Source: Bacteroidota bacterium (GTDB lineage Bacteria > Bacteroidota > Bacteroidia > NS11-12g > UBA955). From it: a stretch of 36,294 nucleotides of DNA. Below, in pieces: positions 32,566 to 36,294 of the stretch. Below the pieces are notes generated by a model that saw only the letters and a list, made by a program, of their open reading frames with translations, was not told the origin of the DNA and did not search any database. The translations under genes and the position numbers were made by a program. Numbering within the stretch: position 1 is the first letter of the stretch; each line of letters opens with the position of its first letter. The stretch spans positions 84,631 to 120,924 of the forward strand of contig VGFS01000001.1 in assembly GCA_016868785.1 (NCBI GenBank), given 5' to 3'.

Positions 32566-32589
32566 AAAAAAAAAAACCTCATATTGAGG
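32565..32589 (-). terminator. Terminator after tRNA-Lys
   Basis: On the minus strand CCTCA and TGAGG pair around ATA (32589-32577), followed by a run of twelve T. It lies just downstream of the tRNA. Confidence 0.8.
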
Positions 32590-32599
32590 GCTTTGGTTG

Positions 32600-32672
32600 T
32601 GATCCCGCTGGGACTCGAACCCAGGACCCATACATTAAAAGTGTATTGCTCTACCAACTGAGCTACGGAATC
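32600..32672 (-). tRNA. tRNA-Lys (anticodon TTT)
   Basis: A 73-nt cloverleaf on the minus strand: acceptor stem GATTCCG/CGGGATC (one T-G wobble) with discriminator A, D arm AGCTCAGTTGGTAGAGC, anticodon loop CTTTTAA with anticodon TTT, and T arm GGTTCGAGTCC. CCA is not encoded. Confidence 0.96.
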
Positions 32673-32738: not shown

Positions 32739-33878
32739 TTAAGAAATTTCTTTTCGATACGTATGGTGAATTTTTGTCTTTGTGGCACCTAGACTCTCTA
32801 ACATACTGATCATCTTTGGATTGAAATCGCCAATCCAAGCCAGCTCCATACTATCAACGGTTTTATTGCTGTGGATTCCTTGGTAAAACTTCATGATTAA
32901 CCCAGTTTCTATGCCCAAATTCTGATAATCTGGCACCACGCCAAAAACAATCCCTTTGGCTTTATTGATTGATTTGCGGAACCATAAAAATTGTAGTTTT
33001 TGCCACAACCCCATTTTACCCTTGAAACGGCGAAAAACTTGGTTGATTTCGAGAATGGCAATGAAGAACCCAATGGGCCGATCATTGTCATAAGCAAAAA
33101 TTGCAAATTCAGGCGGCATTGCTGGTTTAACTTCCGTGAATCTTTTGTTGAGCACCTCCGGTGACAATGATTCAAAGTCCTCATGAAAAGCCCATGCCTC
33201 GTTGTATATCCTCACGAAATCAGCCGAATATTTCTCCATGTTTCCGTATTCAAGTTGAACAAATCGATAATTCTCCTTACTCATAACTCGGTCTGCAATC
33301 TTACTGAATCTATCATAGTTGAATGTGTTGTGTGTGATATCGTAGGTATTCTGTTCGATTTCCAATTTATAACCTCGTTCTTCAATCCAATTACGGTAAT
33401 AGGGAGGGTTGTAACTTTCTCGGTACGACACCTGATTTTGAGAGGATATCAAAAGTCCCCAAAAACTATCACGATCGCCAAAGTTAATTGGGGCATCAAT
33501 GCTGAGGCAAGCTTCTTCTATTAACCATCTTTCAGCGATATCCCATAATTCCATCGCCATATTGCGATCATCTATGCATTCAAAAAATCCGATGCCCCCT
33601 CTTTTACCTGATTTGGGTTTTTGGGTATAGAAGGCAGCGATTCGGCCGGCCGGCAGGCCTGCCGAATCGTAAATCACCCACCTACGGGCAGTGCCGTTCA
33701 GGAACGACTTGTTCTTTTGCGGATCAAAAATCCCCTCTACATCACTCTCTAAGGGATAAATAAAGTCGGGATCATTGGCATATACCAAGTCCATCACTCG
33801 GTGAAAATCCAACACCTTGTCTGTTTGTAACACCTCTGATACAACAAACCCATTTGCCTCGCCTACTGAATTCTTCAT
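32739..33878 (-). CDS. GNAT-fold N-acetyltransferase (YghO-like family)
   Basis: This 379-residue protein belongs to a widespread family of about 370-residue proteins with a C-terminal GNAT domain. N-terminal signs are PLESDVEGIFDPQKNKSFLNG and VIYDSAGLPAGRIAAFY. The middle has GGIGFFECIDDRNMAMELWDIAERWL, then INFGDRDSFWGLLI, and YNPPYYRNWIEERGYKL. The C-terminal domain contains IGFFIAILEINQVFRRFKGK, FGVVPDYQNLGIETGLIMKFY and a final strand near LESLGATKTKIHHTYRKEI, in the position of the acetyl-CoA binding loop. No substrate is known. It is cytoplasmic (no signal). It begins only 3 nt after the stop of the cytochrome/copper monooxygenase gene and is probably the last cistron of that operon. 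A 32-bp GC-rich inverted repeat lies within it. Confidence 0.85.
   Translation of the reverse strand: MKNSVGEANGFVVSEVLQTDKVLDFHRVMDLVYANDPDFIYPLESDVEGIFDPQKNKSFLNGTARRWVIYDSAGLPAGRIAAFYTQKPKSGKRGGIGFFECIDDRNMAMELWDIAERWLIEEACLSIDAPINFGDRDSFWGLLISSQNQVSYRESYNPPYYRNWIEERGYKLEIEQNTYDITHNTFNYDRFSKIADRVMSKENYRFVQLEYGNMEKYSADFVRIYNEAWAFHEDFESLSPEVLNKRFTEVKPAMPPEFAIFAYDNDRPIGFFIAILEINQVFRRFKGKMGLWQKLQFLWFRKSINKAKGIVFGVVPDYQNLGIETGLIMKFYQGIHSNKTVDSMELAWIGDFNPKMISMLESLGATKTKIHHTYRKEIS
33638..33669. repeat. GC-rich inverted repeat inside the GNAT gene
   Basis: Nine-bp arms cgattcggc and gccgaatcg flank a 14-nt GC-rich centre; the inner ggcaggcctgcc (33652-33663) is itself a perfect palindrome. It encodes the stretch around YDSAGLPAGRIAA. 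Confidence 0.6.
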
Positions 33879-33881
33879 CGT

Positions 33882-35261
33882 TTACTTTTTCCTTTCCAAA
33901 GATATGTGCTCATCGCCTTTTTGGTACACTGTGTATGTGAGGATAAACTGAAACATTTCGTCCGACGCCCGCATGCTCGCTCCGCCGTAGTCCCATCGTT
34001 CCGACACCAATTTGGGTGGGTGGTTGGGATTGTAGGGGTTGTTTGCTGTGTTATCGAACTCGGCAATCGCCACGATTTCAGCGCCTGCAGGTATCTTGAC
34101 CATCTGCTTGAACGTATAAAAATACTGCCAATTAAAATTCCATCGTGGAATACGAATCAATGGAATGGTATCGCCATTGGGCTTGATGGCAAATGCCCAA
34201 AACGACTTCCCAAGTTGATGCAAATGGGGATTGATTGTAAGTACAGAGATGTCTGCATCGATGGTATATCGGGTTACATGCTTTGTTACCTTATTGGCAG
34301 GAACCACCAAAGGCGGAACGATCTTACTCACGCCATTGGTACCCAGCATCAACTCGCCGGTTGCGCGTTTGGGAGCCACATCCGTGAAAAAGACATTCAA
34401 AACGGGTTTGTCGGTGATGTTGGTGTCGGACGGACCGTAATGCACATCATTCATGACCGCAGCAAAGTTGCGCGGCACCTCGTAAACACCGATTCCCGCA
34501 GGATATTCGATCCCTTCAACCCCCGGCAAATAGTTAAATGCCGAATGAATCCTACTGGGAAGAGGTCCATCCTTGGGTAGTAACCGAAGCTGTTCAATCA
34601 AGTTCAAATCCGTTGAATTGGAGGTTTCTATTTTACCAACCGCCCTGCTGGGTTCGAGTTTAGAACCATCGGCATAAAGCAATAAATGTCCGTTTGCGTG
34701 GTGAATCAGACCCGCACGCGAGGGCACCAACTCCAACGCCGAGATATACCGTTTTCTGTCCAACCGCACCATTGCTTTGCTGATGAAAAACCGATCGAGA
34801 TCCCCTTCTCTTAAAGATACTGAATCGAACGGAACAACAAAATCTGGCTTCCGAATATTGCTGCGGTGGGTGTTTGGTGCTTGATAAACGTATGGGCCAC
34901 TGCCCTCTATCGCCCCCTGTTCTACCCATCGTTGAATGGTCGCAATTTCCACCTCTGTCAATACCTTTTCTCCCACAAAATGCGTGTAGTTGGGATCAGC
35001 TGGCCAAGGGGGCATGTACCGATTGAGTGTAACTTTCGCAATGGTTTTCGCTCGTTTTTGTACCGATTCAAATTTTTCCAAAGAGAACGGTGCAGCACCA
35101 TTTTCACGGTGACAAGGCAAACAATTCTTGGACAAAATTGGCGCAATATGCTCCGCAAACGTGGGTTTGGTAGGCACGGATTTGCTATCCCCTCCATCAC
35201 CGCAACCAATGATTGAAACAAACATTATCAAAACAATGATATACAAACGATTGGTTTTCAT
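33882..35261 (-). CDS. Lipoprotein fusing a cytochrome c domain to a type II copper (DBH/PHM-like) monooxygenase
   Basis: The 459-residue protein has a lipobox ending IIGC (Cys20). A cytochrome c domain binds haem through CLPCH (Cys47, Cys50, His51). From about residue 140 it resembles copper type II ascorbate-dependent monooxygenases: His187-His188 (LIHHANGH) and His274 (NDVHYGPSDTNITD) fit the CuH site. His346 and His348 (NPHLHQLGK), with Met436 (ASDEMF), fit the CuM site. The typical WNFNWQYFYTFK and DNTANNPYNPNHPP blocks are also present. Such enzymes hydroxylate C-H bonds; the fused haem domain may supply electrons. Substrate is unknown. It follows the redoxin lipoprotein gene with a 1-nt gap and precedes the GNAT gene by 3 nt. 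Confidence 0.88.
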   Translation of the reverse strand: MKTNRLYIIVLIMFVSIIGCGDGGDSKSVPTKPTFAEHIAPILSKNCLPCHRENGAAPFSLEKFESVQKRAKTIAKVTLNRYMPPWPADPNYTHFVGEKVLTEVEIATIQRWVEQGAIEGSGPYVYQAPNTHRSNIRKPDFVVPFDSVSLREGDLDRFFISKAMVRLDRKRYISALELVPSRAGLIHHANGHLLLYADGSKLEPSRAVGKIETSNSTDLNLIEQLRLLPKDGPLPSRIHSAFNYLPGVEGIEYPAGIGVYEVPRNFAAVMNDVHYGPSDTNITDKPVLNVFFTDVAPKRATGELMLGTNGVSKIVPPLVVPANKVTKHVTRYTIDADISVLTINPHLHQLGKSFWAFAIKPNGDTIPLIRIPRWNFNWQYFYTFKQMVKIPAGAEIVAIAEFDNTANNPYNPNHPPKLVSERWDYGGASMRASDEMFQFILTYTVYQKGDEHISLERKK

Positions 35262-35262
35262 A

Positions 35263-35895
35263 TTAAAAATTCAAATTGGCTTGATTACCCCCAATAAAAC
35301 AACCCACTGCTTGGGTATTTTTTACCCTAACTTCTCCATCTTCCAACAACTGAGCGATGGCTTCGCTCAAGTAATTGTTTTGGGCATGATGTTTCACCAC
35401 GCCCAACGAAACAGCCCGGTCATCAATTTTTCCTTGATATAATATTTCACGGGTCAAACAGTTCGCCAATACCACCTCCGGATAAACCGTCAATCCATAC
35501 CGTTTACAGATTATGTGTGTAGGATCGCGAAAAAGAAGACCATTCATCCCCGAGATGGATTTGGTCCCAACACCTGGATCTAGCAAACAAAATGTCACTT
35601 GCTTGCCGTAATCCTCATAAAGATCCTTGATGGTTTTGATGTAATTCTTGGCTACCGGACATTCACTGGAATAGGCAATCAAGCACAAATACTTCTCTGA
35701 TTCAAACCTGCTTCCAAATTCATCGACAATTAACGATGAATCATTTTGCTCTCGAGACTCAGCTTCAGCATTGATAGGCCCTTCATCAGAACCCTCACCA
35801 ACACAGTTCGTGAGTAAAGCCACCGCCATAACACATACCACACCCAACAAAGGCTTGAAGGAAAACAAGGGGTTATCGCAACCGTAATGTCTCAT
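35263..35895 (-). CDS. Redoxin (thioredoxin-fold) lipoprotein of the monooxygenase-associated family
   Basis: The frame extends upstream, but the ATG at 35895 gives the best signal peptide, ending LLTNC with Cys31 as the lipidated residue; the product has 210 residues. The thioredoxin-like domain has CLIAYSSECPVAKNYIKTIKDL, with one cysteine in the active-site position and no CxxC. It continues with the YGLTVYPEVVLAN cis-proline loop and ILYQGKIDDR, and ends NTQAVGCFIGG. This arrangement (ECPxAxxY, a Y-G-x-I-D-D block, and a terminal GCxI) marks a redoxin family that often accompanies or is fused to DBH-like copper monooxygenases. A redox or copper-handling role in the periplasm is inferred. 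It starts 11 nt after the TrmH-type gene. Confidence 0.8.
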   Translation of the reverse strand: MRHYGCDNPLFSFKPLLGVVCVMAVALLTNCVGEGSDEGPINAEAESREQNDSSLIVDEFGSRFESEKYLCLIAYSSECPVAKNYIKTIKDLYEDYGKQVTFCLLDPGVGTKSISGMNGLLFRDPTHIICKRYGLTVYPEVVLANCLTREILYQGKIDDRAVSLGVVKHHAQNNYLSEAIAQLLEDGEVRVKNTQAVGCFIGGNQANLNF

Positions 35896-35906
35896 GTAAA
35901 TCAGCT

Positions 35907-36294
35907 TTAAACCCGGGTTCTGGCGTATTCCCAGAGCAGCATGCCACAAGAAACCGAGATATTGAACGAGTGTTTCGTCCCCAGTTGGGGTATTTCAATG
36001 ACCCCATCACAGGCCTTGATAACCGCTTCATCAACACCATCGATCTCATTGCCAAACACAAAGGCTACCGGTGTTTGATTGAACTGCATGTTTTGCAACA
36101 TCACCGAATCACTGGTTTGCTCAACGGCGTACACCAAAAACCCCTGCTCTTTCAAACTCAGTACTACGTCCATCGCTGATTGACTATAAATCCAATTCAC
36201 TGAATTCTCTGCGCCAATCGCCGTTTTGGTAATGTCGCGATGTGGCGGTTTCGCCGTGATGCCGCACAAATAAAGGCTATCGCACAAAAACGCA
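35907..36294 (-). CDS. TrmH/SpoU family RNA 2'-O-methyltransferase (partial, 5' end beyond the window)
   Basis: The frame is open to the window edge on the minus strand. Its start is missing, and the visible part covers about 128 residues: FLCDSLYLCGITAKPPHRDITKTAIGA, then AFVFGNEIDGVDEAVIKACDGVIEIPQLGTKHSFNISVSC. Those are the SPOUT-fold knot motifs 1-3 that bind S-adenosylmethionine in TrmH-like enzymes. It should methylate a 2'-hydroxyl in tRNA or rRNA; the exact target is not visible. It is followed after 11 nt by the redoxin lipoprotein gene on the same strand. Confidence 0.9.
   Translation of the reverse strand, partial: AFLCDSLYLCGITAKPPHRDITKTAIGAENSVNWIYSQSAMDVVLSLKEQGFLVYAVEQTSDSVMLQNMQFNQTPVAFVFGNEIDGVDEAVIKACDGVIEIPQLGTKHSFNISVSCGMLLWEYARTRV

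Follow-up and report, generated by a model that had tools for sequence, protein, structure and literature searches.

A lineage-specific operon in Bacteroidota joins a redoxin and a predicted haem c/copper monooxygenase to a relative of bacterial ceramide synthases

Eukaryotic PHM is a copper monooxygenase that hydroxylates N-acylglycines next to the amide nitrogen; ResA and CcmG reduce haem-binding CxxC cysteines, and Sco loads copper. Here we describe a locus that holds, in a row, a redoxin-like gene, a gene for a PHM-fold monooxygenase with a c-type haem motif, and a gene for a tandem-GNAT N-acyltransferase. It lies in a 36,294-nucleotide stretch of DNA (the window; G000:C1:84631-120924, GenBank contig VGFS01000001.1 of assembly GCA_016868785.1), which belongs to a Bacteroidota genome of 2.07 Mb in 79 contigs, of the order NS11-12g.

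Two lipid pathways are the closest described systems for the third gene, and the papers on them are cited here as far as their accessible text goes. The acyl-CoA N-acyltransferase of bacterial dihydroceramide synthesis is CC_1154, or yghO (PMC9386255), and ceramide formation needs CC_1154 (PMC11324152); in Bacteroidota producers the three ceramide genes are not close together (PMC11334938). In the sulfonolipid pathway, the cysteate acyl-ACP transferase SulA carries Lys281 where serine palmitoyltransferase (SPT) has alanine, with pyridoxal phosphate (PLP) bound on Lys251 (PMC9304779). The reductase of this pathway is covered in PMC11211663, CapABC is taken as the pathway in PMC12927429, and the N-acylation of capnine is described, with its enzyme unnamed, in the accessible part of PMC10191378. 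Sulfonolipids play a part in gliding (PMC10191378) and in signalling to a choanoflagellate (PMC3463246).

The three genes of the window are co-directional on the minus strand, running from the redoxin (35895-35263) through the monooxygenase (35261-33882) to the GNAT (33878-32739). The gaps are 1 nt between redoxin and monooxygenase and 3 nt between the monooxygenase end at 33882 and the GNAT start at 33878, and these open reading frame (ORF) coordinates agree with the compact set described in an earlier sequence-only reading of the window. We read the trio as a genuine operon, bound to one lineage, that combines two separable functions, namely a putatively exported redoxin/monooxygenase pair and a GNAT that would acylate a long-chain amine, likeliest capnine, and we give this reading a probability of just under one half (about 0.48). 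The three genes are probably co-transcribed without forming one pathway.

In this proposal, the exported copper enzyme would oxygenate its substrate, and its own c-type haem would feed electrons to the copper in place of ascorbate. The redoxin may serve the maturation of the monooxygenase, and the cytoplasmic tandem-GNAT would attach a fatty acyl group to an amine with a long chain. The three genes would have become neighbours once, in the ancestor of six genera of one family. That each of the three parts belongs to a known kind is well supported.

The monooxygenase gene (33882..35261, minus strand) encodes 459 aa. Its product matches the Pfam model Cu2_monoox_C with 25.7 bits against a cut-off of 23, and the N-terminal model Cu2_monooxygen was not reported at E <= 1. 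An AlphaFold2 model built on 44 alignment rows reached a pLDDT of 86 and a pTM of 0.82. The model showed a Z of 18.3 to 4zel (281 aligned residues, root-mean-square deviation 3.6) and 14.3-17.8 to PHM entries, and the next unrelated row fell to 6.8. The two-domain PHM/DBH match spans residues 137-449, and the haem c motif CLPCH (C47, C50, H51; 35109..35123, minus strand) sits in the N-terminal part. The haem motif and the six expected copper ligands noticed in the sequence-only reading are all present and invariant in 44/44 rows, as is M83. On the minus strand, these ligands are H187-H188 (34698..34703), H274 (34440..34442), H346-x-H348 (34218..34226) and M436 of a DEM motif (33954..33956). 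By analogy with PHM, the H187-H188 pair presumably belongs to CuH, and H346, H348 and M436 to CuM, roles that we take from motif and order against PHM numbering rather than from a residue-level superposition. The model and the ligands make a solid case for a predicted PHM-type copper enzyme with two copper sites (HH + H, HxH + M) and a c-type haem.

The window monooxygenase has three cysteines, C20 in a lipobox-like context and the haem-binding C47 and C50, and no others; other alignment rows carry further cysteines, and 21/44 rows have just two beyond residue 30. The N-termini of both this protein and the redoxin were lipoprotein-like when judged by eye, in line with the lipoproteins proposed earlier. 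The nearest named relatives of the monooxygenase are metagenome-assembled genomes (MAGs) such as 'Bacteroidetes bacterium UBA955'. A PDB sequence search gave matches at chance level only, and a plasmid search found 1 record, covering residues 7-117 only. Among the papers listed in literature searches for PHM with a redoxin or PHM in Bacteroidota none was relevant, nor was the accessible part of PMC7435645. A peptide amidation pathway was set aside: the six ORFs of the window that were scanned contain no lyase domain, and precursor peptides were not sought. The same genome has a second PHM paralogue of 549 aa (L094:5934-7583, contig C10), with both Cu2_monooxygen and Cu2_monoox_C above the Pfam cut-off and a C-terminal tail that resembles a type IX secretion sorting domain by eye.

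The redoxin-like lipoprotein (35263..35895, minus strand) has 210 aa from ATG 35895. The ORF tool begins the frame at TTG 35949, which falls within the SpoU/TrmH frame upstream; the ATG is preferred because it lies after the trmH stop (35907) and yields the lipoprotein-like N-terminus. Counted from this ATG, C79 in an ECP motif (35659..35661) and C199 in a GC near the C-terminus (35299..35301) are each conserved in 59/60 rows, and the lipobox-like C31 is kept in 53/60. The protein had been described as a one-cysteine redoxin, and this does not hold, as it has nine cysteines in total. The CxxC of thioredoxin or ResA is not conserved either, only C79 of that pair being kept, together with C199. 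Its relatives are weak, with an E of 0.012 for PDB 2cvb and Pfam matches below cut-off only, and a plasmid search found no record. Because C20, C47 and C50 are the only cysteines of the window monooxygenase, the haem-binding pair would be the sole likely target if the redoxin works on it by thiol chemistry. The redoxin would most likely reduce these haem-binding cysteines, and copper delivery to the monooxygenase would be an alternative role.

We surveyed 108 genomes of the order, with genera and genomes given under our own labels, and found the monooxygenase in 101 (E <= 1e-20), and the GNAT in 87 and the redoxin in 83 (E <= 1e-5). Positions were transcribed by hand; those for the monooxygenase come from its better-scoring matches, in 91 genomes, and those for the other two genes are complete. 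The weaker monooxygenase matches, which were left out, comprise paralogues and, where contigs end, some fragments of orthologues (e.g. G092, G061). Gene calls at the loci are longest ORFs and uncurated. In the divergent genera that keep the operon, the monooxygenase is 49-80% identical to the window protein. A redoxin was found no more than 6 kb upstream of the monooxygenase in 69/108 genomes and 17/24 genera, and in 52 genomes the distance was at most 300 nt. Most of the order has the haem c/PHM protein with a redoxin, and the pairing claimed in the sequence-only reading stands. Among the named monooxygenase loci, which are the best 80 of 434 relatives, 44 had the redoxin next to the monooxygenase, and in a further 13 it lay no more than 6 kb away. 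In genus g21 (L087, L164 and others), redoxin and monooxygenase are split by about 1.9 kb or more, and the interval holds two opposite-strand genes of about 310 and 271 aa.

The monooxygenase and the GNAT were both placed in 81/108 genomes, and their linkage was all or none. They were adjacent in 35/35 genomes of genera g1, g7, g8, g10, g12 and g14, which belong to one family, and in 0/46 genomes of the other genera with both genes. Outside the order, neither monooxygenase nor redoxin was found in the 13-14 kb fetched around 26 GNAT loci of the same type (24 genomes). A link of the GNAT to the pair in other genomes, which the sequence-only reading had asked for, is therefore present in the six genera and absent in the other genera and at the 26 loci. 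The operon is lineage-bound, the trio being seen in one lineage only. In a 76-row GNAT tree, the 11 linked GNATs fell in one clade of 12 rows. The twelfth is L085 (G040), whose GNAT is on the other strand from the monooxygenase, at a distance of 3.4 kb.

These data bear on the suggestion that the adjacency is inherited synteny only, without a common function or even a common transcript. Such an explanation fits the single, clade-bound origin in the sampled tree and the neighbouring trmH, which is also kept in much of the clade. However, in 30 of the 76 named monooxygenase loci with room downstream the GNAT starts -47 to +30 nt from the monooxygenase stop (in 46 it does not), which is more tight junctions than chance gives, and an opposite-strand GNAT was seen in 0/80 loci. 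The gene after the GNAT also varies, by listed lengths and strands, while the monooxygenase-GNAT pair does not. We consider mere synteny doubtful.

The tight operon in all 35 genomes of the six genera, and the close junctions of the 30 named loci, could instead speak for one pathway. The GNAT would make an N-acyl aminolipid in the cytoplasm and, once the lipid had left the cell interior, the PHM-type enzyme would hydroxylate it beside its amide nitrogen, either in the periplasm or in the outer membrane. The PHM fold and the acyltransferase family suit such chemistry, and the trio persists where the upstream neighbours differ, with a 709-aa gene before the redoxin in g8 and g12. Against this stand the 0/46 genomes outside the six genera, and the independent occurrence of the two genes: genus g9 has the GNAT without a monooxygenase match (2/2 genomes), and genus g16 has a monooxygenase orthologue in 4/7 genomes and no GNAT. 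The synteny also takes in trmH and a mutS-like neighbour in part of the clade. Conservation does not tie the monooxygenase to the GNAT, and a joint pathway, while possible, is in our judgement quite unlikely. A general three-gene pathway is not supported: each of the two enzymes also occurs in genomes without the other.

The GNAT (32739..33878, minus strand, 379 aa) gave nothing at E <= 1 in Pfam and NCBIfam, and matches at chance level only in a PDB sequence search. Its model (29 rows; pLDDT 87, pTM 0.80) is a tandem GNAT. Among the best ten rows, it reached Z 19.9 to a glucosamine N-acetyltransferase, with mycothiol synthase and further tandem GNATs at 18-19; a ceramide synthase structure was absent among the rows shown, which excludes nothing. 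A tblastn search against plasmids found 43 records, 38 of them with >= 80% cover, YghO included. The 30 listed matches were 21-30% identical, and were annotated as YghO, dATP pyrophosphohydrolase, (GNAT family) N-acetyltransferase, hypothetical protein, or not at all.

We examined seven plasmid GNAT regions and, as an eighth, E. coli yghO. In the Rubrobacter and Streptomyces plasmids, an aminotransferase-class SPT-like synthase gene is followed by the GNAT and an epimerase-type gene; the best NCBIfam match of the Rubrobacter synthase was serine palmitoyltransferase, below cut-off, and the Pseudomonas synthase was above cut-off. The Pseudomonas GNAT adjoins genes for SPT, acyl carrier protein, an epimerase-type protein, an acyl-AMP ligase, LptF/LptG and a lipid kinase. 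The Sphingomonas and Roseomonas GNATs are near LptF/LptG genes, E. coli yghO adjoins an acyl-AMP ligase gene, and none of such lipid genes was listed in the Tunicatimonas and Ensifer regions. An hhalign comparison of 22 GNATs of the window type with the SPT-linked Rubrobacter homologue covered 365 columns at E 3.9e-38. The window GNAT thus shows full-length sequence homology to bCerS/YghO. The GNAT label of the sequence-only reading stands by fold, and the acetyltransferase of unspecified type it implied is replaced by a ceramide synthase relative; this kinship points to aminolipid acylation and away from the peptide modification or detoxification route proposed there. PMC10128005 was discarded, as its 'bceRS' refers to bacitracin resistance.

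No SPT or epimerase-type reductase gene lies beside the GNAT at the window locus, and a BLAST search with SPT and reductase references found none beside the 26 same-type loci outside the order. Such a neighbour is a weak criterion here because the ceramide genes are scattered in Bacteroidota producers (PMC11334938). A synthase does stand beside the GNAT in four distant-type loci (L319-L322), which were fetched for that reason. Several other GNAT neighbourhoods in the order were of interest. G009 has a cluster of alanine-type synthase, GNAT and epimerase-type genes (L239:3887-7305, contig C61), with a distant GNAT, and a strong cysteate-type synthase match besides. A short-chain dehydrogenase gene, FabG-like in NCBIfam (L106:3563-4318, also L076 and L082), is arranged head to head with the unlinked GNAT in genus g4, and one like it is found a few genes off in g3 and g11; this dehydrogenase could conceivably be a candidate ketocapnine reductase.

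An SPT query against the window's own genome gave three matches, which are Kbl (TIGR01822, 700 bits) and one synthase in two pieces. The synthase gene is split across the ends of contigs C19 and C43 (L122, L123), with a short overlap between them, on other contigs than the GNAT; its pieces reach no cut-off, as expected of fragments. Only Kbl and this lysine-type synthase were found, and no alanine-type SPT; in a 79-contig MAG such a gene may be missed. The lysine at PLP-lysine +30, equivalent to Lys281 of SulA, was present in 30/30 synthase loci fetched in the order, the genome's own gene included, in 5/5 further order loci (two of them of genus g16) and in 30/30 loci fetched in a class sample. 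Among eight SPT-type control loci, the motif was readable in five, with alanine in all five. On the strength of this diagnostic lysine, we predict sulfonolipid synthesis in the organism. Since no other SPT-like alpha-oxoamine synthase was found than this one of the cysteate (SulA/CapB) type, capnine or a close relative would most likely be the amine that the GNAT acylates.

Co-occurrence was scored in three samples. A GNAT match at E <= 1e-20 was found in 238/247 genomes of a phylum sample. In a class sample of 60 genomes, the window GNAT type (E <= 1e-90) occurred in 25, and all 25 also have the cysteate-type synthase (E <= 1e-160), which by score is present in 57/60; the cut-offs of 1e-90 and 1e-160 were set after two groups had been seen in each table. 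In the order (n=108), where strong synthase matches were judged by eye and crossed with the GNAT list, both genes were present in 78 genomes, the synthase alone in 20, the GNAT alone in 9, and neither in 1. Strict co-occurrence of the GNAT and the cysteate synthase was therefore rejected as a clean marker, in view of g16 and the GNAT-only and synthase-only genomes, and our own added expectation that the GNAT would always accompany the synthase did not hold.

Several observations weigh against our reading. Of the 57 class genomes with the synthase, 32 lack the window GNAT type, including 4 in which no GNAT-family member was found at E <= 1e-20. In nine order genomes with the GNAT there was no strong synthase match; one of them, G073, is rated 99% complete, and most of the others are partial MAGs. 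In genus g16, the synthase is present in 7/7 genomes (67-73% identity; the lysine was checked in two of the seven), and the GNAT family is absent even by profile. As the redoxin lacks a CxxC like that of ResA/CcmG, assigning it to maturation is guesswork. Finally, an operon kept across divergent genera could mean a real functional tie between its members.

Some of these points suit a different substrate, in which the GNAT acylates another amine, such as a sphingoid base made by a missed SPT, ornithine, glycine or a wall sugar, with no sulfonolipid link. The cysteate-type synthase occurs without this GNAT type in genus g16 and in the majority of family f6 genomes, the nine GNAT-only order genomes point the same way, and the structures that match the GNAT model best are those of glucosamine N-acetyltransferases and other tandem GNATs. 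This is opposed by the sequence family of the GNAT, which is that of ceramide synthase, by the own-genome SPT search with only Kbl and the lysine-type synthase, and by the synthase in all 25 class genomes with this GNAT type. Acylation of another amine is possible, and we regard it as a serious minority view. The lipid step that we assign to the GNAT, a capnine-type acylation, is a good but contested hypothesis drawn from sequence comparison. A bolder combination, in which the GNAT would be the last sulfonolipid enzyme in this part of the Bacteroidota, a capnine N-acyltransferase, and the exported monooxygenase of the six-genus operon would hydroxylate the finished N-acyl aminolipid as PHM does N-acylglycines, seems to us very improbable.

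In the accessible text of PMC9304779, PMC11211663 and PMC10191378, the enzymes of sulfonolipid synthesis are named up to capnine only, and our literature search, which left most subscription papers outside its coverage, found none on a capnine N-acylating enzyme. A ceramide-synthase relative that keeps company with cysteate synthase in 25/25 class genomes offers a candidate for the N-acylation step that is open to direct test. Genome G009 shows that, within the order, ceramide-type genes can occur in the same genome as a cysteate-type synthase. The haem c/PHM protein with its redoxin looks like a way of running a PHM-type enzyme without ascorbate.

Toward low coordinates, the order at the locus is a partial SpoU/TrmH gene, the redoxin, the monooxygenase, the GNAT, a tRNA-Lys and a hairpin with ten T. 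The upstream neighbour (35907..36293, minus strand) is a gene for a SpoU/TrmH RNA methyltransferase (Pfam SpoU_methylase, 2.8e-21) of which the 3' part is present, as it runs off the contig. This contig end (36169-36294) overlaps contig C69 (L095) by 126 bases, and C69 holds a trmH piece and a gene resembling mutS by eye. In genera g6, g8 and g12 (L104:10111-12237, L099, L100), a protein of 708-709 aa lies between TrmH and redoxin, for which Pfam gave nothing above cut-off. Just downstream of the GNAT, on the same strand, lies a tRNA-Lys(TTT) gene (32599..32672), followed by a terminator-like hairpin (32577..32589, minus strand) with an unbroken run of ten T; the hairpin class is weak, as the region has 8 such sites and shuffled sequence has 4.9 (sd 2.0).

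Compared with known systems, the monooxygenase shares with PHM/DBH (Cu type II ascorbate-dependent monooxygenases) the two-domain fold and the six copper ligands in order. It differs in its N-terminal c-type haem motif and lipoprotein-like start, in having no cysteines left for disulfides, and in that the N-terminal Pfam model matches the paralogue L094 but not the window protein. The redoxin has a weak sequence relation to the thiol-disulfide isomerase of PDB 2cvb, which we take to be TTHA0593, and has the C-terminal GC cysteine in common with it, whereas 2cvb has a CxxC of which the redoxin family keeps the second cysteine only, and the redoxin is paired with a PHM-fold enzyme. The GNAT shares full-length homology and the GNAT fold with bCerS/YghO (CC_1154, aca); unlike these, it falls in a separate clade, away from any SPT and beside a copper monooxygenase, in a genome in which no alanine-type SPT was found. 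With respect to the SulA/CapB sulfonolipid pathway (PMC9304779, PMC10191378), no GNAT is named for it in the accessible parts of PMC9304779, PMC11211663 and PMC10191378, and the likeness lies in the synthase of the window's own genome, which has the diagnostic lysine.

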